A DNA stretch of 50,219 bases from Gemmatimonadota bacterium (GTDB taxonomy: Bacteria; Latescibacterota; UBA2968). The position numbers and the translations under genes were made by a program. The stretch's first letter is position 1; each line of letters begins with the position of its first letter. Positions 10,537 to 41,911 of this stretch are shown in pieces. The notes under the pieces were generated by a model, which worked only from the letters and a program-made list of their open reading frames with translations, did no database searches and was not told where the DNA came from. The stretch covers positions 1-50,219 of the forward strand of contig VXRD01000045.1 in the NCBI GenBank assembly GCA_009838845.1. Reading direction: 5' to 3'.

Positions 10537-12075
10537 TCACTCCCACAACCTTCTATCCAGACTACGGTATTGAATCGCCTCGGCAACATGGCGCGATTGG
10601 ATATCCTCTTCGCCTTCCAGATCTGCTATTGTGCGGCTCGCCTTCAGGATGCGATCATAGGCCCGCGCCGAAAGCCCCAATCGCGTAATCGCCATCCGCA
10701 ACAACTCCTCGCTCCTATCATCAATTTTACAAAACATCCGAATCTCTCGCGACCCCATGTGCGCGTTGCTAAACAAATCTCTATAATCTGCAAACCGTTC
10801 CAATTGTATTTGCCGCGCGCCTTGCACGCGCTTGCGAACCTCTGCAGAAGACTCGCCAGCGGGTTCATTGGCCAGTTCTTCATACTGCACAGCCGGGGCT
10901 TCTACGTGAATATCAATGCGATCCATCAGCGGTCCCGAGATTCGATTGACATAGCGCTGCACCACAGGTGGCGAGCAAATACACTCGTGGTGTGGATCGC
11001 CCAAATACCCGCACGGACACGGATTCATGGCGCAAACGAGCATAAACTGCGCGGGATACGAAAGCGACATCGCCGCGCGTGCAATCGTCACAAAACTGTC
11101 CTCAATAGGTTGGCGAAGAGACTCCAAAACCTGTTTCTTAAACTCGGGAAGCTCATCCAAAAACAGCACCCCGTGATGTGCCAGCGACACCTCTCCCGGC
11201 CGGGGATAGGGACCGCCACCGATCAATCCCGCATCTGAAATCGTGTGATGTGGCGAACGAAACGGCCTTACTGCCACCAGTGCCGTATCAGGCGGCAGCA
11301 ACCCCGCCACCGAGTGAATTTTTGTCGTCTGCAGAGCCTCATCCAGGGTCAGATTGGGTAAAATGGTCGGCAATCTCCTGGCGAGCATCGTCTTACCAGA
11401 TCCGGGTGGTCCCATGAGAATCGCGTTATGCGCGCCTGCCGCCGCCACCTCCAGCGCGCGCTTGGCATGCTCTTGCCCGCGCACATCCCTAAAATCCACC
11501 CGATGCATCCGCGCCTGCCGAAAAATCGCCTGGCTATTGATTTCAAAGGGCATGATATCGCAGTACCCCTCAAAAAAATCCAGTGCCTCACTCAAATCGC
11601 GCACCGGCAAAACATCTAACCCTCCAGTAATCGCCGCCTCTTGCGCATTCTCCACAGGGACGAGCAACCCTTTTAAACCCGCCTTTTTGGCTTCCACAGC
11701 CATTGACAGTGCCCCGCGCACGGGCCGCACCGTACCATCTAAAGCCAACTCACCCAAAATGAGATATTGCGACAGCTTCTCGGGTGAAATTGAATCGCCC
11801 ATCGCGGCGATAATACCTATCGCAATCGGCAAATCAAATGCCGAGCCTTCCTTTCGAATATCTGCCGGTGCCAAATTCACCGTAATCCGATTAGTTGGAA
11901 ATGTTCGCCCGGCATTTTTAATCGCAGCCATCACCCGATCCCGGCTCTCCTTCACCGTACTATCGGGCAAACCCACCACTGAAAATGAGGGAAGCCGACG
12001 CGAAATATCCGCCTCAATATGCACGATATACGCATCAATACCCAGCGTAGCACAACTCAACACACGCGAAGTCAT
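10537..12075 (-). CDS. comM: ComM/YifB family Mg-chelatase-like AAA+ ATPase
   Basis: A 512-residue protein with the three-part ComM architecture: an N-terminal LonC-like ChlI domain (about 20-140, PSFSVVGLPDSTVKES...VNLAPAD), an AAA+ Mg-chelatase domain with Walker A GPPGSGKT (222-229), FRSPHHTISDAGLIGG and GVLFLDELPEF, and a C-terminal domain ending in LSARAYDRILKASRTIADLEG. A Cys-rich insert NPCPCGYLGDPHHECIC is normal for the family. ComM homologues are hexameric helicases that promote branch migration during natural transformation. The start ATG 12075 is set by GGAGG 5 bp upstream; that ribosome site lies in a hairpin. Confidence 0.95.
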   Translation of the reverse strand: MTSRVLSCATLGIDAYIVHIEADISRRLPSFSVVGLPDSTVKESRDRVMAAIKNAGRTFPTNRITVNLAPADIRKEGSAFDLPIAIGIIAAMGDSISPEKLSQYLILGELALDGTVRPVRGALSMAVEAKKAGLKGLLVPVENAQEAAITGGLDVLPVRDLSEALDFFEGYCDIMPFEINSQAIFRQARMHRVDFRDVRGQEHAKRALEVAAAGAHNAILMGPPGSGKTMLARRLPTILPNLTLDEALQTTKIHSVAGLLPPDTALVAVRPFRSPHHTISDAGLIGGGPYPRPGEVSLAHHGVLFLDELPEFKKQVLESLRQPIEDSFVTIARAAMSLSYPAQFMLVCAMNPCPCGYLGDPHHECICSPPVVQRYVNRISGPLMDRIDIHVEAPAVQYEELANEPAGESSAEVRKRVQGARQIQLERFADYRDLFSNAHMGSREIRMFCKIDDRSEELLRMAITRLGLSARAYDRILKASRTIADLEGEEDIQSRHVAEAIQYRSLDRRLWE

Positions 12076-12081
12076 CAAAAC

Positions 12082-12133
12082 CTCCTTGCCTGAAAGAAAC
12101 CAACCGAAAGAAGCACTAGAATCAGGCAAGGAG
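12082..12133 (-). promoter_or_regulatory. Hairpin that sequesters the comM ribosome-binding site
   Basis: In the comM leader, CTCCTTGCCTGA (12122-12133 read on the minus strand) is perfectly complementary over 12 bp to TCAGGCAAGGAG (12082-12093), which contains the ribosome site before ATG 12075. The loop is 28 bases. As folded, the site would be inaccessible, so translation could depend on a ligand, protein, temperature or antisense RNA. Confidence 0.75.
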
Positions 12134-12182
12134 TGTGCCAGAACCACTTGAAACAATAACTTGTTGTTATAAAAAAATTTAC

Positions 12183-12212
12183 ATCATATCAAAGCAGACC
12201 TGTATTGAACAA
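12183..12212 (-). promoter_or_regulatory. Candidate promoter of comM
   Basis: Minus-strand TTGTTC (12207-12212) and TATGAT (12183-12188) with an 18-bp spacer, giving a leader of about 100 bases that includes the hairpin. Just downstream is a short palindrome ATAAC-N5-GTTAT (12156-12170) that could be an operator. Confidence 0.45.
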
Positions 12213-12261
12213 TCTTTTCACAAAAACCATCTTCCGCAGAACAAAATGTGCAACACGCCTG

Positions 12262-13506
12262 CTACTTCATCCGATCCAGCACGGGCTGCAATTTTTGTCG
12301 CGCTACCTCGGCTTCTGCGCCCCCATCGACGACCGGGTGTTCTTCCAACTCATCTGCTACCACATCGTACAAATCGCCCGTATCGTAGAGCTTCCAGCGT
12401 TTATCCTGTGCCCACCGCTTTAAGTAATACCCCACCTTACCCCATCCGGGAAGGGGATCGTGATGGGCAAAAATCCACTCGCGCGGCGTTCCCGCCTCGC
12501 CCTTTAACTGCGGCAAAAATGACACCCCATCAAACACATCGTCCTCGGGCAAAGAAATGCCAGCCATATCCATCATAGTGGGCACAAAATCACTACAATC
12601 GATCAAATCATCACACACAGACCCCGGGGGAATTGTCCCCGGCCAACTCGCGACAAATGGCACCCGCGTACCCGCATCGGTCGAAAGGCCCTTCCCCCCC
12701 TGGAACTCGCGACCATTAATCATAGAAGTCACCTGACGGGGCGAACCATTATCGCCAATAAACAAAAGCAAAGTATTCTCTCTCAGACCGAGTTCATCCA
12801 ATTTATCTACAATCCGTCCAATCACCACATCCATATACTCAACCATATCTTTAAAATACTTCACACCGCTATCGTGTCGGTTTTCAGACCATATTTCACT
12901 ATGGGGCGTGGGTTCAAACGGACCGTGTGTCAGCGCCATGGGATAATAAACAAAAAATGGCTCATCCTTGTGCCGCTCGATATAATCGCAAATATAAGCC
13001 GTATAAATATCCGGACCGTACTTGCCCTCTGTATCCTCCAAATACGCTCCATTTTGCTGAATCACCGGATCGGCATACCGCGACCCCTTATCCTCGGTGT
13101 GTTCCGTATGCCATAAGCAATACTCGTCAAAACCCGAATCTTCCGCCAATTGCCCCTTACCGCGCCACTCGGGCTCAAAATCCGGCGGATTATAGCTATA
13201 CATTTGCCATTTACCCGAAATACACGTTTTGTACCCAGCCGCTTGCATCAGATGTCCAAAGGTGCGCTCCTGAGGGTCCATCACGCCAAAAGCTCTCCAA
13301 TTTCGAAAATTGTATTTACCCGTCATCAACTGTAACCGAGTCGGCGTACACAGCGGCAGGACATACGCATGGTCAAAACGCATCCCCTCCTTGCTCAAAC
13401 CATCCAGCACGGGAGTTCGATACGATTCACCCCCATAACACCCCAGGCATTCATATCCCAAATCATCGGACAGAATCAGAATAATATTTGGTTTATCAGA
13501 AGCCAT
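12262..13506 (-). CDS. Sulfatase (arylsulfatase A-like)
   Basis: A 414-residue sulfatase, shorter than the other four. Motifs: NIILILSDDLGYECLGCYGG (double-Asp metal site of the arylsulfatase A-like group), C53-T-P-T-R-L-Q-L-M-T-G (formylglycine site), SGKWQM, ALTHGPFEPTPHS and FIGDNGSPRQ, where Asn replaces the second His of the usual DHG, as in arylsulfatase A-like enzymes. ATG 13506 follows AAAGGAG. No signal peptide. It is the last gene of a minus-strand run behind an enolase-superfamily enzyme, which suggests desulfation and dehydration of a sugar acid in one pathway. Confidence 0.92.
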   Translation of the reverse strand: MASDKPNIILILSDDLGYECLGCYGGESYRTPVLDGLSKEGMRFDHAYVLPLCTPTRLQLMTGKYNFRNWRAFGVMDPQERTFGHLMQAAGYKTCISGKWQMYSYNPPDFEPEWRGKGQLAEDSGFDEYCLWHTEHTEDKGSRYADPVIQQNGAYLEDTEGKYGPDIYTAYICDYIERHKDEPFFVYYPMALTHGPFEPTPHSEIWSENRHDSGVKYFKDMVEYMDVVIGRIVDKLDELGLRENTLLLFIGDNGSPRQVTSMINGREFQGGKGLSTDAGTRVPFVASWPGTIPPGSVCDDLIDCSDFVPTMMDMAGISLPEDDVFDGVSFLPQLKGEAGTPREWIFAHHDPLPGWGKVGYYLKRWAQDKRWKLYDTGDLYDVVADELEEHPVVDGGAEAEVARQKLQPVLDRMK

Positions 13507-13548
13507 AAAATCTCCTTTCAGTAGTCAGAGCTTCGGGACACGCCCCAT

Positions 13549-14688
13549 TTACAATTCTCCAATCCGCTTCTTCTCAAAAAATTCCCAATCCCATTCGGCA
13601 CCCCATCCGGGATCACTGGGCGGTGTAATATGGCCATTCTCGGGCAAGGGTGGATTGAGCAACCCAATCTCACGACCGCGCACATCCCGGGACCCTCCTG
13701 GGAAAAACTCGTAATAACTCGTATTCGATATGGCACAAACCAGATGTGCATGCACCAGCCCAAACAACCCACCCGGTCCATTAAATTCAATATTTGCACC
13801 GTACATCTCCGCCAAATGTGCTAATTTCAACGTCGGAGTTGTACCCAGCCGCGCATTGGCGCGCAGGGCATCGGTTGCCCCGGAAATAATCCATTGCGCG
13901 CTCAAATCCACATCGTGCATCAAAGTCTCAGGTGCCAAAATGGGAATATCCAGCGCATCGCACAAACGCTGCAAGTTCTTTTGATCTCGATCTGCCAGAG
14001 GCTCTTCAAACCACCCAAACCGCAACGCCTCCAGAGTCTTACCCACCCGAATCGCATCGTGCAACGTATAATCACATCCTGCGGCATCGTGCAAAATATC
14101 GACATCCCTCCCAACCGCATCGCGCACAGCGTGAAAACACGCGATATTTTCATCTGCCGTACCCCCAAAGTGATCTTTTACAGCCAGAAATCCCATTTCC
14201 ACTGCCTTTTTTGCATCGGCTACAGCCTCTTCTTTTGAGCCACTTCTAAAATTGTAATAAGCCGCACAACGAGACCGCGCCCGACCAATCAGACCGTGAA
14301 CGGGAAGCCCCGCAACCTTGCCGGCGATATCCCACAAACAATTGTCAAAAGCGCCAAACCATCCAGGTCGCGTGAACATGCCGCGCGTTGCTTTGTGTAA
14401 TTTTTGCGCGAGTCTCTCCCGATCAAATGGATCTTCGCCAATCGCCAGCAACCGCAATTGCTCCAGATCTTCAGAGCGCATCGTCGTGTACCGCGCATCC
14501 CCCACCGTACACACCCCTTCGATGTCTTCGTCTGTCTTTACATGCAAAACGTGTATATGCTCTGCCGACTTACCCGCACCCCGCTTTGCCCATCGCTTGC
14601 GGGCACCCTGACCGGTTTGTTCCATCCGAAACCGCCCCGTATTGGCGGGCAACTCAAAAACCGAAATCGCAATCGCTCGAATCTTCAC
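13549..14688 (-). CDS. Mandelate racemase/muconate lactonizing enzyme family (enolase superfamily)
   Basis: A 379-residue enolase-superfamily protein. The start is GTG 14688, 5 bp after GGAGG, which also removes overlap with the endonuclease gene. The N-terminal capping domain is about 1-125. The barrel shows K171-D-H173 (the KxK/KxH position), an Asp near 201 (ILHDAAG), E228 in WFEEPL and E254 in APET as the expected Mg ligands. Members abstract the alpha proton of a carboxylate; many dehydrate sugar acids. With a sulfatase 42 bp downstream and an MFS transporter upstream, an acid-sugar dehydratase is the best guess. The substrate is not readable. Confidence 0.9.
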   Translation of the reverse strand: MKIRAIAISVFELPANTGRFRMEQTGQGARKRWAKRGAGKSAEHIHVLHVKTDEDIEGVCTVGDARYTTMRSEDLEQLRLLAIGEDPFDRERLAQKLHKATRGMFTRPGWFGAFDNCLWDIAGKVAGLPVHGLIGRARSRCAAYYNFRSGSKEEAVADAKKAVEMGFLAVKDHFGGTADENIACFHAVRDAVGRDVDILHDAAGCDYTLHDAIRVGKTLEALRFGWFEEPLADRDQKNLQRLCDALDIPILAPETLMHDVDLSAQWIISGATDALRANARLGTTPTLKLAHLAEMYGANIEFNGPGGLFGLVHAHLVCAISNTSYYEFFPGGSRDVRGREIGLLNPPLPENGHITPPSDPGWGAEWDWEFFEKKRIGEL

Positions 14689-14704
14689 TTCCACCTCCAA
14701 TCTT

Positions 14705-15355
14705 TCAAAGCAAACTTCTGCGTCCATACACGCTACAAATGCGGCATTGATGGGGATCATGGCCTCTCGCAGGGCAATATTCTCGTCCAAAAAAAATAAT
14801 CTGCAAATGCAGCTTATTCCAAATTTCCGCGGGAAAAATGCGTTTCAAATCGCGCTCGGTCTGCACCACATTTTTGCCACTGGACAACCCCCATCGATAG
14901 GCGAGACGATGAATATGCGTATCCACGGGAAATGCCGGCACGCCAAAAGCCTGAGCCATCACCACCGACGCCGTCTTGTGTCCCACGCCGGGCAATGCTT
15001 CCAAACCTTCATAAGATTGGGGCACCTCGCCATCGTGTTCATCCAGCAAAATACGAGACAAATCGAAAATCGCCTGCGCTTTGCGAGGCGCCAACCCACA
15101 CGGACGGATAATGCCTTCGATTTCTTCAACCGACAGCGCAATCATTTTCTCTGGCGTATCTGCCCTGGCAAATAAAACCGGCGTCACCTGATTGACCCGC
15201 ACATCGGTACACTGCGCCGACAACAACACAGCGACCAGCAAGGTATAGGCACTCCCGTGTCTCAGCGATCCTTCGGGATCGGGATACAATTCGTCTAAAA
15301 TCTCGGCAATTCTTTCGGCTTTCTCGGCTTTACTAAAACGCTTTTTCAAATTCAT
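14705..15355 (-). CDS. nth: Endonuclease III (DNA glycosylase/AP lyase)
   Basis: A 216-residue HhH-GPD glycosylase. It has LLSAQCTD, the helix-hairpin-helix LPGVGHKTASVV with catalytic K127, and VDTH with D145. It removes oxidised pyrimidines and nicks the abasic site. The C-terminal iron-sulfur region is unusual: C194-x9-C204-x2-C207, followed by SVYGRRSLL with no fourth Cys, where E. coli has C-x6-C-x2-C-x5-C. ATG 15355 is chosen although GGAG is close to it; GTG 15364 has no ribosome site. It sits 19 bp after an MFS gene and 16 bp before a sugar-acid enzyme, an odd operon partner. Confidence 0.93.
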   Translation of the reverse strand: MNLKKRFSKAEKAERIAEILDELYPDPEGSLRHGSAYTLLVAVLLSAQCTDVRVNQVTPVLFARADTPEKMIALSVEEIEGIIRPCGLAPRKAQAIFDLSRILLDEHDGEVPQSYEGLEALPGVGHKTASVVMAQAFGVPAFPVDTHIHRLAYRWGLSSGKNVVQTERDLKRIFPAEIWNKLHLQIIFFGREYCPARGHDPHQCRICSVYGRRSLL

Positions 15356-31937: not shown

Positions 31938-33039
31938 ATTTAATCCCAGTAATCAACCCACCCTCGGCGTGGAAATAGAACTGGCTCTGGTCGATGCCAA
32001 CACCATGGCTTTGTGCAGCAAAAATGCCGCGATTCTCAATCGCATTCCCGACGAATATGCCGACAAAATCAAGCCCGAATTGATGCAGTGTTATGTCGAA
32101 ATCAACACCGATATATGTGAAAGTGTCAGCCATGTAGAAGCCGACCTCAAGCCCAAACTCCAGACGCTATCCAGCGTAGCGGCCGCCGAGAATGTCCAAC
32201 TCTACTGGTCGGGCACACACCCATTTTCCACCTGGCGCGAACAAAAAATCACCCCCAATGACCGATACATGGGCCTCGTCAACCTTCTCCAGGACACCGC
32301 CCGGCAACTGGTCACATTTGGCCTCCACGTACACGTAGGCGTCAACAGCGGCGACAAAGCCATAATGATCTGCGACCGAATACTGCGCTATTTGCCCGTC
32401 TTGCTGGCGCTATCTTGCAACAGCCCATTCTGGGAAGGTCGGGTCACGGGCTTGCACTCGTGGCGATCAAAAGTAATGGAGGGCCTCCCCACCGCTGGGC
32501 TGCCCCCCTTAATGCGCAACTGGAGCGAATATGTCTGGCTCATCAACCACCTCATCGACACTGGCTATATCGAATCCATCCGAGAAATCTGGTGGGACGT
32601 GCGTCCCCACCACGCATTTGGCACCGTTGAAGTCCGCATTTGCGACATTCCCGGCACTCTCGAAGACACATTGGGATTGGTCGCACTCGTACAGTGTTTA
32701 ATTTGCAACCTGTCCGACGAAATCGACCGGGGAATCTATCAACACGACAGCCACCCCATGCTCATCCGTCAAAACAAATGGCATGCCTCGCGGTACGGCA
32801 TCGATGCACAACTGGTCGATTCCACCTCTCACAACCTCAAATCCGTCCCACAAATAACCGAGGAACTCGTCGAAAAACTGCTCCCCATGGCCGAACAGCT
32901 CAATTGCGTACCCTATCTCAAACACGTCCTCGACATGGCTCACCAACCCACCTGGGCGCAACGGCAAATGGATCTCCTCGCCCTCACTGGCGACCCCGCC
33001 GAAGTCGTCCGCCGCCTGATTAACGAACCATCTTCTTGA
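31924..33039 (+). CDS. Carboxylate-amine ligase, glutamate-cysteine ligase family 2 (YbdK-like)
   Basis: A 371-residue GCS2/YbdK-type ATP-dependent ligase. GVEIELALVD at the N-terminus and LHVHVGVNS in the middle are family motifs, followed by WWDVRPHHAFGTVEVRICD. It joins a carboxylate (often glutamate) to an amine. ATG 31924 is 6 bp after GGAG and overlaps the M20 stop; ATG 31912 is less likely. Together the two genes could form and cut the same amide bond. The 3' end overlaps the ankyrin gene on the other strand by 20 bp. Confidence 0.9.
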   Translation: MTRLEFNPSNQPTLGVEIELALVDANTMALCSKNAAILNRIPDEYADKIKPELMQCYVEINTDICESVSHVEADLKPKLQTLSSVAAAENVQLYWSGTHPFSTWREQKITPNDRYMGLVNLLQDTARQLVTFGLHVHVGVNSGDKAIMICDRILRYLPVLLALSCNSPFWEGRVTGLHSWRSKVMEGLPTAGLPPLMRNWSEYVWLINHLIDTGYIESIREIWWDVRPHHAFGTVEVRICDIPGTLEDTLGLVALVQCLICNLSDEIDRGIYQHDSHPMLIRQNKWHASRYGIDAQLVDSTSHNLKSVPQITEELVEKLLPMAEQLNCVPYLKHVLDMAHQPTWAQRQMDLLALTGDPAEVVRRLINEPSS

Positions 33040-33442
33040 CCGAATTGCCAACAGACTGCAGAAACTTCACAACTTCCGCGGCTTCCTTGCCTCCCTTTTT
33101 GGCATGGATCATCAGCGCAATCCCGTGTGGCCCCTTTTCATTTACAACCGCGGGATTGTCGTTCACCACCGCCTGTACGATTTCGAGCTTGCCCAGCATG
33201 GCCGCCGCAAACAAATCGATACGCGCACCCTTGTTCAGCAAAAACTCGGCAATGTCCTTGCGACCCATGTGTGCTGCTGCGCCCAGTCCTGTTTCCCAGT
33301 CGCCGCCTCCCCAATCCCAGGAAGAATTGACGAGTGCCGGTTCTTTCTCAAGCAGCTTTTTTACACTGTCGAAGTCGCCGTGGGCATCTTGGACAAATTG
33401 GTTGACGAGTTTCGGATCAATAGCAGAATTATTTTGTGACAT
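33020..33442 (-). CDS. Ankyrin-repeat protein
   Basis: A 140-residue protein with about three ankyrin-like units (DSVKKLLEKEPALVNSS, GLGAAAHMGRKDIAEFLLNKGARIDLF, AAMLGKLEIVQAVVNDNPAVVNE, IALMIHAKKGGKEAAEVVKFL). No signal peptide. ATG 33442 follows AAGGA; a promoter-like TTGAAT-N16-TATTTT stands about 60 bp upstream. It probably binds a protein partner in the cytoplasm. It is the only gene between the ligase and the S41 protease; no other function is visible. Confidence 0.82.
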   Translation of the reverse strand: MSQNNSAIDPKLVNQFVQDAHGDFDSVKKLLEKEPALVNSSWDWGGGDWETGLGAAAHMGRKDIAEFLLNKGARIDLFAAAMLGKLEIVQAVVNDNPAVVNEKGPHGIALMIHAKKGGKEAAEVVKFLQSVGNSVKKMVR

Positions 33443-33573
33443 GTTTTCCTTCCCCTCTTGTCGCGGTGCAATAAAATATTTTGACAATCTGAAAATTCAA
33501 CAAATTGTAATAACATTTAACTGGAGACGCAACGAGAATGAAGAAAAGTTTCAGAGGGAGTTAATTCCTCCTT

Positions 33574-34593
33574 TCATTTTTTTACTAATATCTCAATCGC
33601 TGTTTCAAAAATGCGGTCCGTTCCACTTTCCAAAAGCGCGTCTGGCGTCGAAACCCAAACATCGGGTGCAAGACCAACACCTTCAAAAGGTTCAAAGTTG
33701 GGCGTAAATGCCTGCCACCGCGGAACACGAAAAGTCCAGCCATTGGGTAGTTCACGATACACGGGATTGCCCGAACCCCCTCCCGTTGTGTCACCAACAA
33801 CTGTGACCTGGGGCAAAGTACGCATCATAAGCACAAAGGCTTCTGCCGCGCTAAAAACACGACGGTTGGTGAGCAGGACGACTGGTCTGGTAAATGTGAT
33901 ATTGCCTTTGGGTTCAAAGCTATCGGAAAAATACTGGGTAAAATCGTCGTGATTGGGTCCGCTGCGAAACTGAACATGCCTGAACAATCGCTCTTCATCT
34001 GCAAATCTGCTAGCAACATCCTTTGCATTTCGACCACTGCCTCCGCCATTGTTGCGAACATCGACAATGAGTCCTTGTATATTACCCATTTCTCTCAGTG
34101 CGATTTCGATGTCTCGTCCCCAATTGCCACCACTATAATTGCTAAAACTGCTGATATGCACATATCCAATTTGCTCATCCAACAAGCGATATTGTATGGG
34201 ATTATTTGTGCGTCTCACGATACCATATTGAATGCGTAAAATTTCGCTGTCGTAATTGCGTGGATATTGATCCCACCAGGCAGTGTATGAATAATCTCCC
34301 AAAGGGGTATAAAGATTTACATGCCCGTCCCGGAGTGTTGCGAGCATATTGCTCATAATGAGAAATAGGTCCTCATCTGTTGTCTGCGATGTGACCTGTG
34401 GGCGATAGATGGCATAAACCGAATCCCAGTCAACGCCTTTGAGTTCAAATGCAGCGTAGAAATGGTCGTATTCTTGCCAGAGGTATTCAAAATTGCTTTC
34501 GGGTGTGTTTTCTGGAATAGAATTGGTAATGGTTCGGCTACACCCTATGCCCAGGAGGATAAAAATGAAGAATGTTGGCAGACAAATCTTCAC
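33574..34593 (-). CDS. S41-family peptidase, lipoprotein
   Basis: A 339-residue C-terminal-processing-like protease. The lipobox LGIGC (C18) marks an envelope lipoprotein. The catalytic core is GLIVDVRNNGGGSGRNAKDVA, RRVFSAAEAFVLMMRTLPQV with the nucleophile Ser in SAAE, and VVGDTTGGGSGNP; the C-terminal GVGLAPDVWV is the usual end. No PDZ domain is obvious. It starts 3 bp after the barrel protein stop and probably processes or degrades envelope proteins. It may belong to the upstream sigma/caspase block. Confidence 0.9.
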   Translation of the reverse strand: MKICLPTFFIFILLGIGCSRTITNSIPENTPESNFEYLWQEYDHFYAAFELKGVDWDSVYAIYRPQVTSQTTDEDLFLIMSNMLATLRDGHVNLYTPLGDYSYTAWWDQYPRNYDSEILRIQYGIVRRTNNPIQYRLLDEQIGYVHISSFSNYSGGNWGRDIEIALREMGNIQGLIVDVRNNGGGSGRNAKDVASRFADEERLFRHVQFRSGPNHDDFTQYFSDSFEPKGNITFTRPVVLLTNRRVFSAAEAFVLMMRTLPQVTVVGDTTGGGSGNPVYRELPNGWTFRVPRWQAFTPNFEPFEGVGLAPDVWVSTPDALLESGTDRIFETAIEILVKK

Positions 34594-34595
34594 GT

Positions 34596-35348
34596 CTAAA
34601 ACCTCCAGTTGATCAACCCACTCAGTTGATCAACGCCGATTTGCACACGACGCGGTTCCGTATAGCGATAGAATTGTCCCCAATATTGTATCTGGACAGA
34701 CCATCTATTAGAAAGATGATGCGTCCAGACAAGATTGTGTTCCACGCTTAAAAATTGGTGTAGACTTGTTGTATCGAAGTCTCCGCTTTCACCCATGCCA
34801 TAGGTATGACGCCATAAGAACACAAGCGCGGGTACAGACAGGTCATAATATAGAGATGATTTGTCTGTCCATTCAAAATGCAATGCGATTGACGGCTGAA
34901 CCGAACCGACGAATTCACCAAAATATTCACGACCAGATTGTAAGTAAAATTGTCTGCGAAAATGAATAAATGCCTGTTGAACAACACCCCAATGCAACCG
35001 CAGACGACCAGACGAATCAGACCGAAAGGAGCGGTGATATGCGTATCTTACTTGAATGCGAGTTAGCTCAACCCTGTGATTGTGCCCTCGGGTAAGAGAC
35101 GATGTGAGAAGCCCAGTATCCCACATCAGGGATATGTGATGACGGCGTTTGGCATTTTGAGCGCGATATTTGATGAGCCATCCCTTGCCATCTCCATTGT
35201 AAGTAAATGGAGAAGCCAAATTATCTTTACTACGCATCAAAAACAAACCGAGACCAATACCGAATTGCCGCGTATTTTTTGTCTCGGCTTCCACAGATTG
35301 CGCAATCAACAAACATCCCACAAAAACCAAACCAATATATTTCGCCAT
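34596..35348 (-). CDS. Predicted outer-membrane beta-barrel protein
   Basis: A 250-residue protein with a signal peptide (MAKYIGLVFVGCLLIAQSVEA). The rest is a run of amphipathic strands, for example RVELTRIQVRYAYHRS, SIALHFEWTDKSSLYYDLSV and RWSVQIQYWGQFYRY, ending in Phe (LINWRF), the outer-membrane assembly signal. No known family is recognised. It sits between the caspase-barrel operon and the S41 lipoprotein gene, 3 bp from the latter. Confidence 0.65.
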   Translation of the reverse strand: MAKYIGLVFVGCLLIAQSVEAETKNTRQFGIGLGLFLMRSKDNLASPFTYNGDGKGWLIKYRAQNAKRRHHISLMWDTGLLTSSLTRGHNHRVELTRIQVRYAYHRSFRSDSSGRLRLHWGVVQQAFIHFRRQFYLQSGREYFGEFVGSVQPSIALHFEWTDKSSLYYDLSVPALVFLWRHTYGMGESGDFDTTSLHQFLSVEHNLVWTHHLSNRWSVQIQYWGQFYRYTEPRRVQIGVDQLSGLINWRF

Positions 35349-35390
35349 AAAATCAGATCTCGTATGTATTGCAAAAGGCGTGAGTTCTGG

Positions 35391-35415
35391 ATCGCGGCTA
35401 AAACCATGCCGCGAT
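35391..35415 (-). other. Hairpin between caspase and barrel genes
   Basis: A perfect 8-bp stem ATCGCGGC/GCCGCGAT with a 9-base loop, 62 bp after the second caspase stop. No T-run follows, so it is not an obvious terminator; it may protect the 3' end or separate two transcripts. Confidence 0.45.
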
Positions 35416-35476
35416 GACGGCTCTGTTGATAGGAATGAGTTAAAGCAAAAAACTTATTTGAAAAACCTCTCTCCTT

Positions 35477-37276
35477 TTATCTGCGAATACTCTTGACCGC
35501 TCCCACATCTTTCCCCCACAACAAACTCAAACTAAAGCTCAATTCCGGACCGCTGAAATTTCTACGACCTCTTATTGGCTCTGCAAAATTTGCAATCAGA
35601 TGATAGCCCGCGCTTGCGCCGAGCATCAAATACCTTCCGATGGCAAAATCAACACCACCACCGATATAAGCTCCCAAACTGGCTTGAATACGACCTTCTT
35701 GAACGATCCTCGATGTAGTCAAGTCGAGATTTAGCTTTTCAAGATCAGCCTGAACGTTGACAGTTCGCCCCTCATCGTCTTCTTGCACCTTAACGCTAAC
35801 GCCTTCCGCCTCAATATCGACGTTTGGTACATCTCGTCCTATACCAACTTTTTGAGAGGTGTCTGATAAAAAATAGGACCCCGCACTTGCGACAACATAA
35901 GGGCGAAAAGGGGATGGTGCCAGAGGCCAGTAGTACCTTACACCAAAAAGCAGAGGCATAACAACGACGGCATCCTCTGATATGCCTATAACACCCACAT
36001 TTTGCTCGATCTCTGCAATCAACCCAGCCCATCGAACCATCAAAGCCAGATTTTCTTTGAGCTGATAGATATAAGCGACAGCCCCCATCACATTCTCTGC
36101 ACTCTGCTGTACCAATCCGCTCCCTACACTTTGCCGCGCCAATCCGCCTGTGCTGGTAGTAGATCTTCCAACTGGATTCCAATATCCGCCGCGCAATTCG
36201 ATCCGAGAGCGCTTTACGCTATATTTAATCCCGCCCCGAGTTGTGGTACGTTCTCGTGCAACAATTTCAAAATCATCTTCGTCAAGTATCTCGCGCTGTC
36301 CCATCGCCAATTCGACCGAAGCTGTAGCCGATTGAATCTCACGGGCCATGTGAACGCGATACGTGCCGGGTTCCAAACCCAACTCAACGCGCCGTCCAGC
36401 GGGCTTGAACAACTCTGCGATCAACTGTCGATTGGCATTTCGAATAAAAAATCGCCCCTGAAGCGACTCCGCCAAAACCAGTCCCGCCGACGTTTGTCGC
36501 ACATCCGTCATCACCACATCGCCCGTACCCGTCATCTTGATATCATAAGCTGGATGCTGTGCCCCTCCTCGTGTGCGTTCCGTGCCCTCCAATGTATTTT
36601 GAAACGCGAAGTGATAGGCTTCATTCAACGTGACGCGCCCATCCCCGGTCACATCTGCTGCACCGCGCAATCCCGACACCAGATAATGCGAAAAAAACGA
36701 CGCCCCAATCGCATCCGACTCCTGCGCCGCTTCATCTTCTGAACTCGACGTCAAAAACGCATACCCCCGCATATCCGACGACGCATCCACCATAAACGCC
36801 TTTTGTCGTCTTCCGCCCTTCAATCGCGTAATCGCACCAGAAGCACAGGCATCCAAAATAGCAATATGCACTTCGGCTTCCATCCTATCCATTGCATTGC
36901 GAAGGCGTACGTAGGAAAAAAGCGATTCACCCAACCTAAGGCCATTTTCATCGGCGTGTCCCGAATAATAGATAATGACCTCTCGCCGCGCTGCTTCCGC
37001 AGATGCAACCCGATTGTGCAATACGTGCAAAGCCATCTCAAGATCGTCAACGCGCGGATCGGATAACAAAACACCGGCATCAACCCCACCCATTGTTTCC
37101 ATGACCTGCACAAAATTTTGAGCATCAGAGACAGCATATTGCAGGGTCTCGCGCTTTGCCCCGCCATCATTGGCACCCACAGCCAGCACCCACCGCCGCA
37201 CGCCATCTACCGCATACAGATCTTGAACAATCAGAACACAGAGTACCATCATAAGAGCCAAAACGCGACCAAACAT
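35477..37276 (-). CDS. Caspase-like (C14) domain protein with EF-hand loop and C-terminal beta-barrel
   Basis: A 599-residue secreted protein. The signal peptide is about 1-22. The caspase-like domain (about 25-265) has H107 in IIYYSGHADENG and C144 in ILDACASGAI, the expected His-Cys dyad. An EF-hand loop DVTGDGRVTLNE (208-219) sits inside the domain, suggesting calcium control as in metacaspases. A middle strand domain (about 265-345) is followed by a strand-rich C-terminus (about 365-590, including FGVRYYWPLAPSPFRPYVVASAGSYF) like an outer-membrane barrel, ending in a basic tail GKDVGAVKSIRR. Strong AGGAGG before ATG 37276. It pairs with a paralogue at 39015-40583. Confidence 0.85.
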   Translation of the reverse strand: MFGRVLALMMVLCVLIVQDLYAVDGVRRWVLAVGANDGGAKRETLQYAVSDAQNFVQVMETMGGVDAGVLLSDPRVDDLEMALHVLHNRVASAEAARREVIIYYSGHADENGLRLGESLFSYVRLRNAMDRMEAEVHIAILDACASGAITRLKGGRRQKAFMVDASSDMRGYAFLTSSSEDEAAQESDAIGASFFSHYLVSGLRGAADVTGDGRVTLNEAYHFAFQNTLEGTERTRGGAQHPAYDIKMTGTGDVVMTDVRQTSAGLVLAESLQGRFFIRNANRQLIAELFKPAGRRVELGLEPGTYRVHMAREIQSATASVELAMGQREILDEDDFEIVARERTTTRGGIKYSVKRSRIELRGGYWNPVGRSTTSTGGLARQSVGSGLVQQSAENVMGAVAYIYQLKENLALMVRWAGLIAEIEQNVGVIGISEDAVVVMPLLFGVRYYWPLAPSPFRPYVVASAGSYFLSDTSQKVGIGRDVPNVDIEAEGVSVKVQEDDEGRTVNVQADLEKLNLDLTTSRIVQEGRIQASLGAYIGGGVDFAIGRYLMLGASAGYHLIANFAEPIRGRRNFSGPELSFSLSLLWGKDVGAVKSIRR

Positions 37277-37322
37277 TGCAATTCTTCCTCCTTTGGACCT
37301 CTCTCCTCATCCGTGATATAAT

Positions 37323-39002
37323 CTAAAACGCCCGCCGAAACCGCACCCAAACCCGCCAATCAACCAGATCGTTTGCATCCAGTGGCCGGGCAAAAAACAC
37401 GCGCAAATTATCGGTCTTTAATCCAAATCCCGCACTCGTTACAACCCGTGTTTCAACAGGCCCTCTATCCGAAAACCACGCCTTACCCGCATCAAAAAAT
37501 ACACCGATGCCAACATCATCTAAAGGCCAGTCATCCCTAAAATGAGCTTCGCCATCAACCCAATAAATCGCATTAAACAGCACCATGCGATCTCCCTCAT
37601 AAGCATTCAATCCATAACCCCTAAGCGAAGAAGGACCTCCGAGACGATAGAGAAATTGCACGGGCACACGTCCTCGTCCAGTACCCGCGCGAACGCGCAA
37701 ATTCAATTGGGTCCCACGCCCCGCATACTGATAGCGGCGCACATCCAGGATATAGCGTTCAAAATCAAAATCGCCTCCCCAAATACCACCTGCTTTCTCA
37801 GCCTGTGCCATTAAACGCCATCCCTGTCGAGACCGTTGGCTCGCACGACTATCTAACTGTAGTGTACCCATTACACTGTGCATTTGCCCGGCCTCAATCT
37901 CTGGATTGGGTCGAAAATTCATCCGGCTACCCCATCGATCGCCAAATAGATTCCAGGAAACGCTATTGGGCATCGACTCGAAAACATCTACACCCACCTG
38001 TCCTCGAACCTCTACCATGCGGTCAAAATCCCGAAAAATATAAGTACTGGCCCCCTCCCGACGATAATAGTCTCTAAAATCGCGTCGCAACAAAAAGGCA
38101 AAAATCGAATTTTCTATCTCATCAATACGCCAATTATCTTGCGTATTTGTCAACCCGTGCAATTCAAAACCCAGCGCGACCATGTTGTCCTTTGACGCAC
38201 CAGAAAAAGTAAAAAACTCAGCACCAGCCTGATAATCCCACCGATTACTCCCAAAGCCATAACCCACTTCGCCATAGTGCGCCACCCCGCGCGAAGTGCG
38301 ATATTTCAATGGCAATCGCCAGCCAATAAAAACGCCATCCACCCGATTGTAACGCACCAAAAAATCTTCGTGATCAATGCGCCAAATATTCGAAAATGGA
38401 GCAATACGCGCCTTCCAGGAACCCAGGCGGTGGTGTGCTATGTGGGAGACAGACGGTTTATATCCGGGCAATAAACGAGCAATGCGATCAAACGCCTCCA
38501 CCTCTAATTCCCGACCAACAGTTCCCATTTTATCAATTTGAACAACGCCAACCACATTGACCAGCGTTAAAGTGGCAGCCTTGCGATCATGGACCATTGC
38601 AAACAGACCAATAACAGCATCTGCTTCCTTCTGCAAATACACCGACACGCGCTCGCGTTTCTTCCATGACTGAACGGTTATCTCCCAACCCATCGCATCT
38701 AAATATCGCGCAATTTTGTCCATACGCATTGCAATCTCATCAACCGACAGAGTATGCACACGCACCAGCTTCAGATCTGATAGGGCTTCACCAATTTTTT
38801 TATTTTTACTTTTGACCCTTTCAGCGACCTGCTTCAACATCAATTGTCCAATAGACACATCCGCAGTGACATCTTTGGACTCAAATACATCCAGTGATTT
38901 AACCTCCACATAACCCAAATGACTGGAAATATCTTGTTGTGCATTCGCGATTCCAAAAATCAAAAAACAAATGACACTCGCGCACAAAATCATTCGGCAC
39001 AT
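37323..39002 (-). CDS. DUF4252 domain fused to Omp85-type outer-membrane barrel
   Basis: A 559-residue protein. After a signal peptide (1-21, ending IANA) comes a DUF4252-like domain (about 30-180: TADVSIGQLMLKQVAERV, MGWEITVQSWKKRERVSVYL, DRKAATLTLVNVVGVVQIDKM). The rest (about 195-559) is a 16-strand-type surface-antigen barrel with the Omp85 signature YRLGGPSSLRGYG and a C-terminal Phe (RVWVRFRRAF). No POTRA domains are seen, although Omp85 proteins normally use them to contact substrate. DUF4252 could take that place. GGAGGAG lies 3 bp before ATG. Neighbours are caspase-barrel genes on both sides. The function is unknown. Confidence 0.82.
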   Translation of the reverse strand: MCRMILCASVICFLIFGIANAQQDISSHLGYVEVKSLDVFESKDVTADVSIGQLMLKQVAERVKSKNKKIGEALSDLKLVRVHTLSVDEIAMRMDKIARYLDAMGWEITVQSWKKRERVSVYLQKEADAVIGLFAMVHDRKAATLTLVNVVGVVQIDKMGTVGRELEVEAFDRIARLLPGYKPSVSHIAHHRLGSWKARIAPFSNIWRIDHEDFLVRYNRVDGVFIGWRLPLKYRTSRGVAHYGEVGYGFGSNRWDYQAGAEFFTFSGASKDNMVALGFELHGLTNTQDNWRIDEIENSIFAFLLRRDFRDYYRREGASTYIFRDFDRMVEVRGQVGVDVFESMPNSVSWNLFGDRWGSRMNFRPNPEIEAGQMHSVMGTLQLDSRASQRSRQGWRLMAQAEKAGGIWGGDFDFERYILDVRRYQYAGRGTQLNLRVRAGTGRGRVPVQFLYRLGGPSSLRGYGLNAYEGDRMVLFNAIYWVDGEAHFRDDWPLDDVGIGVFFDAGKAWFSDRGPVETRVVTSAGFGLKTDNLRVFFARPLDANDLVDWRVWVRFRRAF

Positions 39003-39014
39003 ATTCTCCTCCGA

Positions 39015-40583
39015 TCAGAATAACAACAAACCCAACCCCACGCTGTACTCCATCCCACTATAGTCCGTTTGCCCATCCACCGGCACAGCAAAAGGCTCGA
39101 CAAACCGATTATAGCCTATGCGTCCACCCAGAACAAAAAACTTCATAAACGGCACATCCAGTCCACCACCCCAATACAACCCATTCACTTCATCGACATT
39201 CTCATCCAATACTTTACCCGTGTACCGACCAACGCCTCCTTCGGCATAAGGGCGCAGAGGTGAACGCCACATATTCAAAGGCATATAAATACGCAGACTG
39301 ACCAGCTCAGATGACACGCCTGCTTTTTTTTCATCGTCAGCAAACGAAAATCCCGAACGAGAATAATTGATCGAAACATGTTCTGTGGGCCAGAATCCAA
39401 AAATCCAGACTTTGCTATCATCCCCCAGTTGCCATGCACCCCTGCTGCGTTCAAGACGCCATCTGCCGGATAGCCTGTGTGGATAGCGGGCAGATGTCCC
39501 GGTTGCTGGCTTCCTCAACGCAGGCCCTCGGCTTGTGGTTTTTTCGCGCACCTGAGAGCGAAAATGCCGATCCTCAAGCAAAAACCGCTCACCCTTTTTT
39601 AACGCGACCTTTGAATGCAACAATTGCGTTCGCTGTTCAAAATGAATGTCATAAACCTCGGGTTCCAATCCCAACTCGAGCGTTTGCCCGGCGGTCTTGT
39701 CCAGCTCTGCCACCAGTTGCTCCTGCGAATTGCGCACAAAAAATCGGCCATTCAACTCATCCGACAAAATCAAACTCGCCGACGTCTCTCGCACATCGGT
39801 CATCACCACATCGCCTGTACCCGTCATCTTAATATCATAAGCCGGATGCTGCGCCCCTCCCTGAGTTTTTTCGGTTCGCTTCAGCGTATTGCGAAATGCA
39901 AACGCATACGCTTCGCTGAGTGTCACCTTACCATCACCGGTCACATCTGCTGCACCCCGCAAGCCAGACACCAGATAATGCGTGAAAAACGATCCGCGAA
40001 TGCGATCCGATTCTTGTGCAGCCTCATTTTCGGAACTCGAAGTCAAAAACGCATACCCCCGCATATCCGACGACGTATCGACCATAAAGGCTTTTTGCCT
40101 TTGCCCGCCTTTCAGGCGCGTAATAGCGCCCGAAGCACACGCATCGAGCACAGTAATATGCACATCCGCCTGAACGCTATTCATTGCATCGCGCAAAGCG
40201 CGATAGGTCAACCGATCTTCTCCCAACAGCAACCCATTTTCATCGGCATGCCCCGAATAATACAGGACAACTTCGATGCGACTCGACGATTGGGATGCTT
40301 TTATAACCCGAGATTGCAAATCCATCAAAACCCGTTTAAAATTTTCCAAACTCGGCTCGGCCAATAAAAATTGATCCTCAGATTCAACCCCACCCATCAT
40401 CTCTAAAACACGAGCAAAATGTTTTGCATCCGATACGGCATAACGCAGTGGTGTGCGTTTCACCCCACCAAAATTTGCGCCAGCCGCCAACACAAAACGC
40501 CGCACAACCTGTGTTGCCTCAATTCCCTGAGCACATAACAGCAGACCGATCCCCAACAGTACTGCCCATCGGCGCAACATCAC
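39015..40583 (-). CDS. Caspase-like (C14) domain protein with EF-hand loop and C-terminal beta-barrel (paralogue)
   Basis: A 522-residue paralogue of the protein at 35477-37276. The signal peptide is about 1-23. The His-Cys dyad is H112 (LYYSGHADENG) and C149 (VLDACASGAI); the EF-hand loop DVTGDGKVTLSE (213-224) is intact. Blocks AFLTSSSENEAAQESD and GGAQHPAYDIKMTGTGDVVMTD are shared almost unchanged with the paralogue. The C-terminal third is strand-rich and ends in Phe (GLGLLLF), as in outer-membrane barrels. Its start overlaps the anti-sigma stop (ATGA type), so the two are translationally coupled. The DNA blocks shared by both paralogues could recombine and delete the gene between them. 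Confidence 0.86.
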   Translation of the reverse strand: MMLRRWAVLLGIGLLLCAQGIEATQVVRRFVLAAGANFGGVKRTPLRYAVSDAKHFARVLEMMGGVESEDQFLLAEPSLENFKRVLMDLQSRVIKASQSSSRIEVVLYYSGHADENGLLLGEDRLTYRALRDAMNSVQADVHITVLDACASGAITRLKGGQRQKAFMVDTSSDMRGYAFLTSSSENEAAQESDRIRGSFFTHYLVSGLRGAADVTGDGKVTLSEAYAFAFRNTLKRTEKTQGGAQHPAYDIKMTGTGDVVMTDVRETSASLILSDELNGRFFVRNSQEQLVAELDKTAGQTLELGLEPEVYDIHFEQRTQLLHSKVALKKGERFLLEDRHFRSQVREKTTSRGPALRKPATGTSARYPHRLSGRWRLERSRGAWQLGDDSKVWIFGFWPTEHVSINYSRSGFSFADDEKKAGVSSELVSLRIYMPLNMWRSPLRPYAEGGVGRYTGKVLDENVDEVNGLYWGGGLDVPFMKFFVLGGRIGYNRFVEPFAVPVDGQTDYSGMEYSVGLGLLLF

Positions 40584-41338
40584 CTGCCCCCTTTGTAAAG
40601 CGTAATGACAAACTGCTCAAATTCTCTTCCCACCCTCAATGAATCGGGACCACCCTTTGCCGCCTGTGCCACATCGCGCACGTCAAAAGACATATCTGCT
40701 GTCAAAAAATAAAACCGTTCCCACTTTGGAGCATCATCCAGTTCGTAAGAATAATCCAGAGACACCGGATCGCCCTGTATCAAGCGCACGGCACTTGTTC
40801 CCGATGAGGGCAAATGCCGCGTCACAGTGCCGCGCCCATCCACAGACACAATCACCCCAAAAGGCTTGCCCGCCGCGCGATAAAAAATCTGAATCAAATC
40901 GCCTGTATAAGCCACACTGCTATCCGACAATTGTTCAATCTCAGACGCCCTTTTTCGATATAGCAACAAATCCGGCTTTACGCCTTTTAACCGAATGCCA
41001 TCCATCCCTTTCCGATCCCAGGGTGGCGGCACTTCAGGCCCCGGTAAAAAGATCGAAAAAACAACGGCGAGCAAAATCACAGCGGCCAATGCAAAACGCG
41101 GACCGAACCGCGATATACTCGGCACCCCTCGCCTCTCCGACCGGCGCGCAACCTGCCGCGCAACCCACTCAGTCGGATAGGACGCGTGAATTTCTCGATC
41201 TGACCCTTCCAATGCCTCCAGGCGCGCCCTCAAATCCGGGTCCTCATCCAGCGCCCTTTGAACAGCTCTCATCTCTTCTTCCGGCAGTTCATTCAGCCGA
41301 AAACGCTCCAGTTTCCAATCACCGCGTTGTCTCCTCAT
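40580..41338 (-). CDS. Anti-sigma factor with DUF4384-like periplasmic domain
   Basis: A 252-residue membrane protein. The cytoplasmic part (1-80: WKLERFRLNELPEEEMRAVQRALDED) resembles non-zinc anti-sigma domains, with no HxxxCxxC. One membrane helix is at about 82-98 (FALAAVILLAVVFSIFL). The periplasmic part (about 115-252) has YTGDLIQIFYRAAG, VIVSVDGRGTVTRHLP and LDYSYELDDAPKWERFYFLTA, similar to DUF4384-like domains near myxobacterial caspase genes. It should hold the ECF factor until an envelope signal is sensed. It overlaps both the sigma and caspase genes by 4 bp. Confidence 0.82.
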   Translation of the reverse strand: MRRQRGDWKLERFRLNELPEEEMRAVQRALDEDPDLRARLEALEGSDREIHASYPTEWVARQVARRSERRGVPSISRFGPRFALAAVILLAVVFSIFLPGPEVPPPWDRKGMDGIRLKGVKPDLLLYRKRASEIEQLSDSSVAYTGDLIQIFYRAAGKPFGVIVSVDGRGTVTRHLPSSGTSAVRLIQGDPVSLDYSYELDDAPKWERFYFLTADMSFDVRDVAQAAKGGPDSLRVGREFEQFVITLYKGGR

Positions 41339-41802
41339 AGATCCTCCAACTTCTCCAGCGATTCTCGCAACCCCCGCAACCGCTTTCGCACTCCAGAAAC
41401 CGACATCCCAACCTCCCGAGCGACTTCCGCCAATGTGAAACCATCCACAAAATGTAAAACCGCAATTGTTCGCGTCGAATCTCTGTGCCGGGCAAAAAGC
41501 CGGTCGAGCATCGCCCGAGCATCCAACCGCGATTCCAGATCTTCAATCCCAGCAATGTGTATCAACTTCTCATCACCCGGCAGATCGAGCCGCTGATCGC
41601 GAATGCGATTCAAACACACATTGGTCGCAATGCGATACAGCAAACTCGACGGATAGGTCGCTTTCAGACGATCCCGGCGTTGCAATACCCGCACAAAAAC
41701 ATCTTGCATGGCATCCATGGCGCGATCTTCATCTCGCAACAACCGCCGACAGCGACGCAACACCATAGGACCGTATTTTTGATATAACAATTCGACATTC
41801 AT
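41335..41802 (-). CDS. ECF-type RNA polymerase sigma factor
   Basis: A 155-residue ECF sigma factor. The sigma2 region is about 10-70 (LRRCRRLLRDEDRAMDAMQDVFVRVLQRRD, TNVCLNRIRDQR) and sigma4 about 95-150 (AVLHFVDGFTLAEVAREVGMSVSGVRKRLRGLRESL). It directs polymerase to a small regulon and probably to its own operon. ATG 41802 is chosen over TTG 41808. Its stop overlaps the anti-sigma start, with GGAGG just before it. It heads the caspase/Omp85 operon. Confidence 0.93.
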   Translation of the reverse strand: MNVELLYQKYGPMVLRRCRRLLRDEDRAMDAMQDVFVRVLQRRDRLKATYPSSLLYRIATNVCLNRIRDQRLDLPGDEKLIHIAGIEDLESRLDARAMLDRLFARHRDSTRTIAVLHFVDGFTLAEVAREVGMSVSGVRKRLRGLRESLEKLEDL

Positions 41803-41911
41803 AAACAACCCATCGCTTTATTTTTTAACACATCACACAGACCAAAATGTTACTTTTTTTTGGCAGGCACAAGATCGAGATGAATTTAAACGCTCGCCTG
41901 AGAAGGAAAAT

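Follow-up and report, generated by a model that had tools for sequence, protein, structure and literature searches.

Anti-sigma factors of extracytoplasmic function (ECF) sigma factors can be subject to regulated intramembrane proteolysis, with DegS and others as site-1 proteases. The role of the bacterial caspase homologues is largely open and has often been discussed as programmed death. C14 proteases other than the animal caspases show a strict preference for Arg or Lys at P1, and orthocaspases autoprocess (PMC5756287). Four of the five metacaspases of Myxococcus xanthus lie in sigma-70 operons, and the same layout is reported for Anaeromyxobacter, Haliangium, Sorangium, Ralstonia and Fibrobacter (Asplund-Samuelsson et al. 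2012, PMC3501461). Here we analyse a stretch of 50,219 nucleotides (contig VXRD01000045.1 of assembly GCA_009838845.1, named Gemmatimonadota bacterium and placed in Latescibacterota, UBA2968, by GTDB), referred to as the window, in which genes for an ECF sigma factor, a membrane anti-sigma factor and an exported caspase form the core of a gene cluster at 33,574-41,802. We consider it probable that this caspase is the site-1 protease of its own anti-sigma factor, making the first cut after a Lys or Arg of the linker. The sequence data suggest that the caspase throws the sigma switch rather than being only its product.

The metacaspase/sigma-70 operons reported in 2012 are very probably the same system. 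In the main text of that report the term "anti-sigma" is absent, and its section on operons names no mechanism and no cleavage site (PMC3501461). New here is the basic-Gly site in the anti-sigma linker, while the sigma-caspase operon itself has been known since 2012, described there without the anti-sigma. DegS/RseA and other site-1 proteases (cited in PMC10028731) likewise involve an anti-sigma with a single transmembrane (TM) segment and a periplasmic juxtamembrane linker as the proposed place of the first cut; unlike in those systems, the protease here is a C14 caspase with a predicted outer-membrane tether and a basic P1, and its cleavage is what we infer. FecA/FecR/FecI signalling shares an outer-membrane barrel protein that signals to an inner-membrane anti-sigma across the periplasm, whereas the triad genes yielded neither a TonB-dependent receptor nor a FecR, and the barrel here bears the protease itself. 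Craspase (Cas7-11-Csx29/Csx30) is an RNA-guided TPR-CHAT protease of a CRISPR effector, not known to be exported or to act on a membrane anti-sigma. What it shares is a caspase-superfamily protease relieving a protein inhibitor of an ECF-like sigma factor, since Csx29 cuts Csx30 (PMC10028731). Among the eight window proteins no CRISPR effector or TPR-CHAT Pfam match was found, while the caspases match C14 and have signal-peptide-like N-termini, and a Craspase was rejected. In ECF54 an ECF sigma also lies near caspase-like proteases, with CHAT and subtilase neighbours; it is proposed to act without an anti-sigma (PMC8999054), whereas here the anti-sigma is part of the unit. The EACC1/EACC2 conflict systems likewise combine a caspase domain with an ECF sigma in the same gene neighbourhood (PMC8195603). 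Among NCBIfam models caspase_w_EACC1 comes closest to our caspase, far below cut-off (60 of 140 bits), but the window proteins gave no EACC domain match, and our caspase is an exported protein whose gene goes with that of a membrane anti-sigma. Among the open-licence papers listed in the literature searches, at most 20 for each, none connects a caspase of this type with the cutting of a membrane anti-sigma; the principal classification of ECF sigma factors lies outside this coverage, so that absence is not proven. By analogy, the logic is most likely that of DegS acting on RseA and of Csx29 acting on Csx30, with a new kind of protease in a new place.

All seven genes that the initial annotation had grouped into one module lie on the minus strand, and its overlaps and gaps agree with the open reading frame coordinates of the window. 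The conserved unit comprises only three of them, namely sigma, anti-sigma and caspase. The ECF sigma gene (41,335-41,802, with its ATG at 41,802 and a TTG at 41,808 also open; minus strand, as for all features of the locus below) encodes a protein matching Pfam Sigma70_r2 (1.1e-14; the Pfam scan covered eight window proteins) and TIGR02937 (1.8e-19), homologues of which head the triad in other phyla. It overlaps by 4 bp with the anti-sigma gene (40,580-41,338), which encodes a membrane-spanning protein of 252 amino acids and shares another 4 bp with the gene for caspase 1 (39,015-40,583; Peptidase_C14, 7e-12). At E<=1e-20 the caspase profile matched 25 of 64 genomes in the window's phylum, and in Acidobacteriota, the phylum of a Vicinamibacteria locus, it matched 11 of 396. 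Thirty-eight regions were fetched from the two phyla and 37 of them carry the caspase. The anti-sigma is present in 36 of these 37 loci, the single one without it being a 3.2-kb contig that bears a 110-aa caspase fragment. In 35 of the 36 the caspase stands behind the anti-sigma (L101 instead has it upstream of the sigma), and the sigma was found in 33, the remaining three stopping at a contig edge. Caspase 1 itself occurs at 94-97% identity in five named records, four labelled Latescibacteria or Latescibacterota and one Gemmatimonadota.

The remaining four genes have been added patchily within a single genus, here called g1. In the window's family, of which 15 genomes were searched, matches to the DUF4252-Omp85 protein that include DUF4252 occur only in g1 and in G002; the genes for caspase 2, the small barrel protein and the S41 protease are restricted to a subset of g1 loci. 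Where g1 loci were compared, the small barrel protein is full length only in the window and in G009, with a 90-aa piece in G013, and the S41 protease is again confined to the window and G009. G009 has a different arrangement, with one caspase, a leucine-rich repeat protein of 1047 residues, a barrel and an S41 protease. This patchiness inside g1 rules out the five-gene module, and of the five- to seven-gene system proposed at first only the joint conservation of sigma, anti-sigma and caspase stands.

In the AlphaFold model the anti-sigma contains helices within residues 1-70, a further helix (81-97) compatible with a membrane span, and a DUF4384-like beta domain at 123-249; linker residues 89-118 are disordered, and the predicted local distance difference test (pLDDT) score is below 50 up to residue 118. 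The gene thus follows an ECF sigma gene and encodes a single-TM protein with an N-terminal cytoplasmic domain, as the gene of a class I membrane anti-sigma would, with family scores below cut-off: no Pfam family reached it, two NCBIfam anti-sigma matches are weak (1.6e-5 and 0.0035), two relatives match DUF4384 at 1.6e-5 and 0.002, and zf-HC2 matches among relatives are weak. A Foldseek search with the fold gave nothing at E<=0.001. The proposed caspase cleavage site, R116-L117-K118|G119 (40,982-40,993), is put forward from the conservation of KG and the disorder of the model. It sits at the end of the linker before the first strand at 123, and the residues from KG to this strand vary in number, with insertions; its median distance from the end of the membrane core is 15 residues (n=105).

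The pair is kept over a wide range of sequences. R-x-K-G directly before the beta domain is invariant in the first eight anti-sigmas, KG was found in 35 of 35 readable ones (21 of 21 at 80% non-redundancy) and in all 96 aligned ones (16 + 80 sequences), and K118 and G119 are among the seven invariant columns of alignment A4, whose 16 rows go down to 23% identity to the window protein. Of 22 non-redundant sequences from a divergent R-type branch, 20 have R and 2 have K at one alignment column, and 20 have G and 2 have S at the next; besides R-G only two other columns reach 75% there. Within a 61-residue window after the membrane span, KG occurs in 79 of 83 K-type linkers versus 0.24 expected by shuffling, and [KR]G in 19 of 22 R-type linkers versus 0.45. 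For the pairwise comparison of linker and loop given below, K-type sites were anchored by alignment, while R-type sites were located by simple string matching ([KR]G, or failing that [KR]S), which places K or R there by construction, so that the alignment column and the shuffles are the independent checks. Control membrane proteins beside other ECF genes of three genomes, some of which are probably not anti-sigmas, have KG in 0 of 14 and [KR]G in 1 of 14. These 14 remained from 50 loci after removal of 19 without an ECF-profile match, 11 without a downstream membrane gene, 3 linked to a caspase and 3 set aside (L420, L421, L439) for a weak score to the anti-sigma profile. A conserved [KR]-G pair in such a linker suggests the kind of site that C14 proteases other than animal caspases cut.

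Besides Latescibacterota and Acidobacteriota, at least three other phyla have the triad, so that the initial description of an exported caspase linked to an ECF sigma/anti-sigma pair extends far beyond the window. Two of the further phyla (G490- and G551-type genomes) look like Myxococcota and Fibrobacter. An anti-sigma profile matched 35 of 291 relatives, some of them from other phyla, and with a broader profile at E<=1e-10 the anti-sigma was found in 156 of 195 genomes of the G490 phylum, 3 of 3 of the G610 phylum and 129 of 167 of the G551 phylum. From the matches listed, 80 loci of these three phyla were picked for spread, the weakest matches not being among them, and 40 further regions likewise. 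A caspase lies at most 500 bp downstream on the same strand in 74 of the 80, in 43 of these 74 with the same 4-bp overlap as in the window. A profile of the divergent-branch caspases (A5) matched 151 of 189 genomes.

Six of the 80 loci (L228, L250, L269, L274, L279, L283) have no caspase behind the anti-sigma, and four of them (L269, L274, L279, L283) come from relatives of G551. Where linkage is lost, both genes can still be retained: a family caspase is encoded elsewhere in the genome in G940, G931 and G927, and in G936 and G939 it lies on another contig than the anti-sigma, with 1.2-1.4 kb upstream free of an anti-sigma. Altogether five genomes keep both genes although they are unlinked. 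In G761 the lone anti-sigma L250 and the lone caspase L320 have their best matches in the two members of one linked triad, L252 (68% and 61%), a pattern as expected of a split pair. We propose that the caspase acts on the anti-sigma because the linker pair is invariant and because both genes are kept where they are unlinked.

At L228 (3436-4023, G814) the intact anti-sigma, with IKG, is followed by a short gene with a signal peptide and a barrel-like end, by inspection without a caspase domain, which looks as though the catalytic part had been deleted. Many C14 caspases may occur in one genome, with 12 profile matches in G814 and 9 in G761 (L307, L310, L315-L316, L318-L334); most have their own sigma and anti-sigma and may form parallel, possibly insulated circuits. 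In G590 (L153-L154) the anti-sigmas have long repetitive linkers with KG near the start of the DUF4384-like domain, and caspases are nearby, one of them on the opposite strand.

Caspase 1 consists of a signal peptide, a C14 domain at about 25-255, a beta-sandwich at about 258-345 and a predicted 8-stranded outer-membrane barrel at 375-522. Both caspases of the window have the His-Cys dyad (YYSGHADENG, LDACASG) and are above the Pfam C14 cut-off; His112 (40,248-40,250) and the catalytic Cys149 (40,137-40,139) of caspase 1 are invariant in alignment A2. The C-terminal barrel of the initial annotation is supported by the AlphaFold model with its eight strands and by Foldseek matches to NspA, OprF and OmpA (3e-7 to 2e-6), while the OMP_b-brl match (0.0049) is below the Pfam cut-off; with a signal peptide and a C-terminal beta-barrel, caspase 1 is predicted to be an outer-membrane protein. 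Of 105 non-redundant caspases, 103 have a hydrophobic, signal-peptide-like N-terminal segment. Caspases of other phyla often have a larger C-terminal part, with only weak family matches in those scanned (the LA_2272 surface repeat in two). Behind the catalytic Cys a loop, R156-L157-K158-G159-G160 (40,104-40,118), is a candidate self-processing site. This loop carries [KR]G in 70 of 70 scored caspases (68 KG, 2 RG), four of the 74 caspase matches having no exact Cys motif or being fragmentary, and residues 150-194 of caspase 1 have a pLDDT below 50. In an EF-hand-like loop D213, D217, G218, T221, L222 and E224 are invariant in 10 of 10 sequences, an acidic D...DG pattern occurs in 84 of 105 caspases, and EF-hand_5 matches one of six relatives scanned below cut-off (0.0065). 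Calcium control of the caspase is plausible from this conserved acidic loop. Among the R-type caspases with an apparent in-frame TGA, the one in L328 is explained by a match that just ends three bases beyond the natural stop.

For the resting state we assume that the membrane-bound anti-sigma would hold the ECF sigma in the cytoplasm, while the caspase would reach the periplasm by export and, in this genus, be anchored in the outer membrane through its C-terminal barrel. An envelope signal, possibly failure or occupation of the barrel and with calcium as a putative cofactor, may activate or release the caspase, which would then cleave the linker that joins the membrane helix of the anti-sigma to its DUF4384-like domain, behind the conserved Lys or, in one branch, Arg. 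What is left of the anti-sigma could be degraded by the usual intramembrane and cytoplasmic steps, and the freed sigma would transcribe its own operon and others. The caspase probably processes itself as well, at a comparable [KR]|G bond of the loop that follows its active site. Gene order, recurrence, the invariance and position of the [KR]-G pair and the retention of both genes after loss of linkage are observed; the cut in the anti-sigma, the direction of the effect, the signal and the subsequent breakdown are what we infer. As a speculation, the outer-membrane tethering suggests a switch by position. It is possible, though rather doubtful, that a whole family of exported bacterial caspases, including those of the multicellular myxobacteria, are dedicated site-1 proteases of this kind, with, in the barrel-bearing forms, an inserted barrel keeping the caspase from the inner membrane and a barrel that fails to insert or is displaced allowing it to reach the anti-sigma and release the sigma. 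In these bacteria the activity of the caspase would then signal trouble in envelope assembly instead of serving as a death device.

If the caspase does cut its anti-sigma, it joins the known anti-sigma site-1 proteases and parallels the CRISPR-linked Csx29/Csx30 by a different route. The cleavage model would give a large and widespread caspase group a concrete, easily tested substrate and a named bond, and would move its role from death to signal transduction. With four metacaspase operons that carry sigma factors (PMC3501461), M. xanthus DK1622 makes such a test practical.

Linker and loop were also compared pairwise. Of 194 pairs of a caspase and its upstream gene 183 were used; six loci that are incomplete, carry frameshifts or are mispaired (L080, L098, L108, L113, L318, L325) were dropped, as were second caspases behind DUF4252-Omp85 and pairs without a readable site, and redundancy was reduced at 75% caspase identity only. 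Within the K branch the residue class at P2 covaries between linker and loop, ranking 5th of 260 caspase columns by mutual information (permutation p 0.0005, phylogeny ignored). The basic residues of 105 non-redundant triads are 81 K/K, 16 R/R, 3 R/K and 1 K/R, with 4 unscored. By register the K/R pair (L372) and three of the unscored ones (L327, L373, L391) are R/R on inspection, and L100 is K-S. Strict K-to-K and R-to-R covariation was considered as proof and weakened by three unmatched pairs and by the deep two-branch split that mainly underlies it; as the matching mostly reflects the two branches, we do not use it as such.

Several observations weigh against cleavage of the anti-sigma by the caspase, or against parts of this proposal. 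By same-class fraction the P2 column ranks only 42nd of 260 (phylogeny again ignored), and linker/loop covariation at P3 and P4 is not significant within the K branch. The identity of the P1 residue is not closely matched between the two proteins: in three of the 105 pairs an Arg of the caspase goes with a Lys of the anti-sigma, and apart from the deep K/R split one matched change (L379) stands against these three unmatched ones. One of the three set-aside controls (L420) has KG. Eight examined KG anti-sigmas have no adjacent caspase (the six of the 80, L147 and G650_C274), and in G934, a genome 60% complete, a KG anti-sigma is present and no family caspase was found, so KG could persist without a caspase and be structural. 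Conversely, the family caspases L316, L318 and L320 (G814, G761) have no anti-sigma in 1.2-1.4 kb upstream. As to the loop, the caspase 1 model is poor around it (mean pLDDT 65), and TRGG also stands there in the C14 protein L334, for which the stretch fetched contains no anti-sigma but stops short of the start of L334. Loop [KR]G may therefore be a general C14 feature, the anti-sigma motif being the specific one. Members of a third subtype (L329, L332, L333) have KG in the anti-sigma and no clear [KR]G right after the Cys; their caspases show an AT-C-HSG active-site motif and a lipoprotein-like N-terminus. Finally, a second TM-like segment occurs in 12 of 105 caspases, so the anchor differs and not every caspase is tethered to the outer membrane.

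ECF operons often encode their own outputs. The initial annotation had seen the caspase as such an output, and its gene does follow sigma and anti-sigma with overlaps, while accessory barrels and the S41 protease vary as surface outputs do. The sigma would then induce a caspase that cuts other envelope or foreign proteins, and another protease or a ligand would control the anti-sigma, with KG serving that step. We regard this as unlikely, since it leaves unexplained both the basic-Gly pair of distant anti-sigmas, which fits C14 specificity, and the retention of both genes when they are unlinked; the link to the sigma stands, but the invariant pair and the co-retention argue that the caspase acts on the anti-sigma. 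Competition or programmed death as the purpose of the module found no support: PADLOC gave 0 matches for the seven proteins, by which an anti-phage defence system was also set aside, and no other evidence was found, no further test having been aimed at either.

KG might instead form a turn before the first strand of the DUF4384-like domain, unrelated to proteolysis. Anti-sigmas without a neighbouring caspase (L147, L250, G650_C274) do have it, and several other residues of the domain are also invariant. Such a role is nevertheless improbable, because the pair sits where the AlphaFold model is disordered, its distance from the first strand varies and includes insertions, the R branch keeps its R-G column while only two others reach 75%, and the substitution is by R and not by any residue. 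The same sequence facts, including the covariation of class at P2, would fit a linker pair that occupies the caspase active site as a pseudosubstrate, through which the anti-sigma restrains the caspase; this seems very improbable, as the Gly at P1' and the disordered linker would rather resemble a good substrate. Joint ancestry of a triad moving as a unit by horizontal transfer, without direct contact of its products, would suit the sporadic occurrence in Acidobacteriota (11/396) and is the least probable of all, given an anti-sigma in most genomes of other groups (129/167; 156/195) and the retention of both genes after unlinking. As to vehicles, viral spread was set aside with no confirmed relative among viral contigs, the phage collection not having been searched, and plasmid spread with five weak C14 matches of about 28-31% identity, each covering at most 43% of the query.

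Upstream of the sigma gene a genus-conserved block with GT[AG]AC (41,821-41,860) is a weak candidate for a sigma-dependent promoter. In ten g1 regions it reads GTAAC in seven and GTGAC in three; a scan for generic sigma-70 promoters did no better than shuffles (9 vs 10.7). Downstream of caspase 1, after a gap of 12 bp, the DUF4252-Omp85 fusion (37,323-39,002) matches Pfam DUF4252 (3.1e-7) and Omp85 (3e-9), with DUF5686 (1.2e-5) below cut-off. The fusion may be recent and local, since Omp85-type barrel relatives in sister genera (L013-L015, about 384-432 aa) match its barrel part only and not DUF4252. Caspase 2 (35,477-37,276; Peptidase_C14, 1.5e-9) follows after 46 bp and shares 61% identity with caspase 1 across the catalytic and sandwich region, while the barrels differ. 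A small predicted barrel protein (34,596-35,348), for which no Pfam family scored above cut-off, is encoded 128 bp further on, and 2 bp behind it lies the gene of a lipoprotein protease (33,574-34,593) with S41 (4.9e-32) and Tricorn_C1 matches.

The end of the operon is a hot spot for varied surface proteins, which in the window corresponds to 33,500-37,300. L025 has there (11765-14908, the same place as in G009 and L077) the 1047-aa leucine-rich repeat protein, with an acidic tail, and L111 (14455-17532, G008) an exported-looking protein of 1025 aa. Beyond the S41 gene the window encodes an ankyrin-repeat protein (33,020-33,487), relatives of which also lie beyond the operon in L094, L095, L096, L110 and L111, loci in which no full-length S41 or barrel genes were found.

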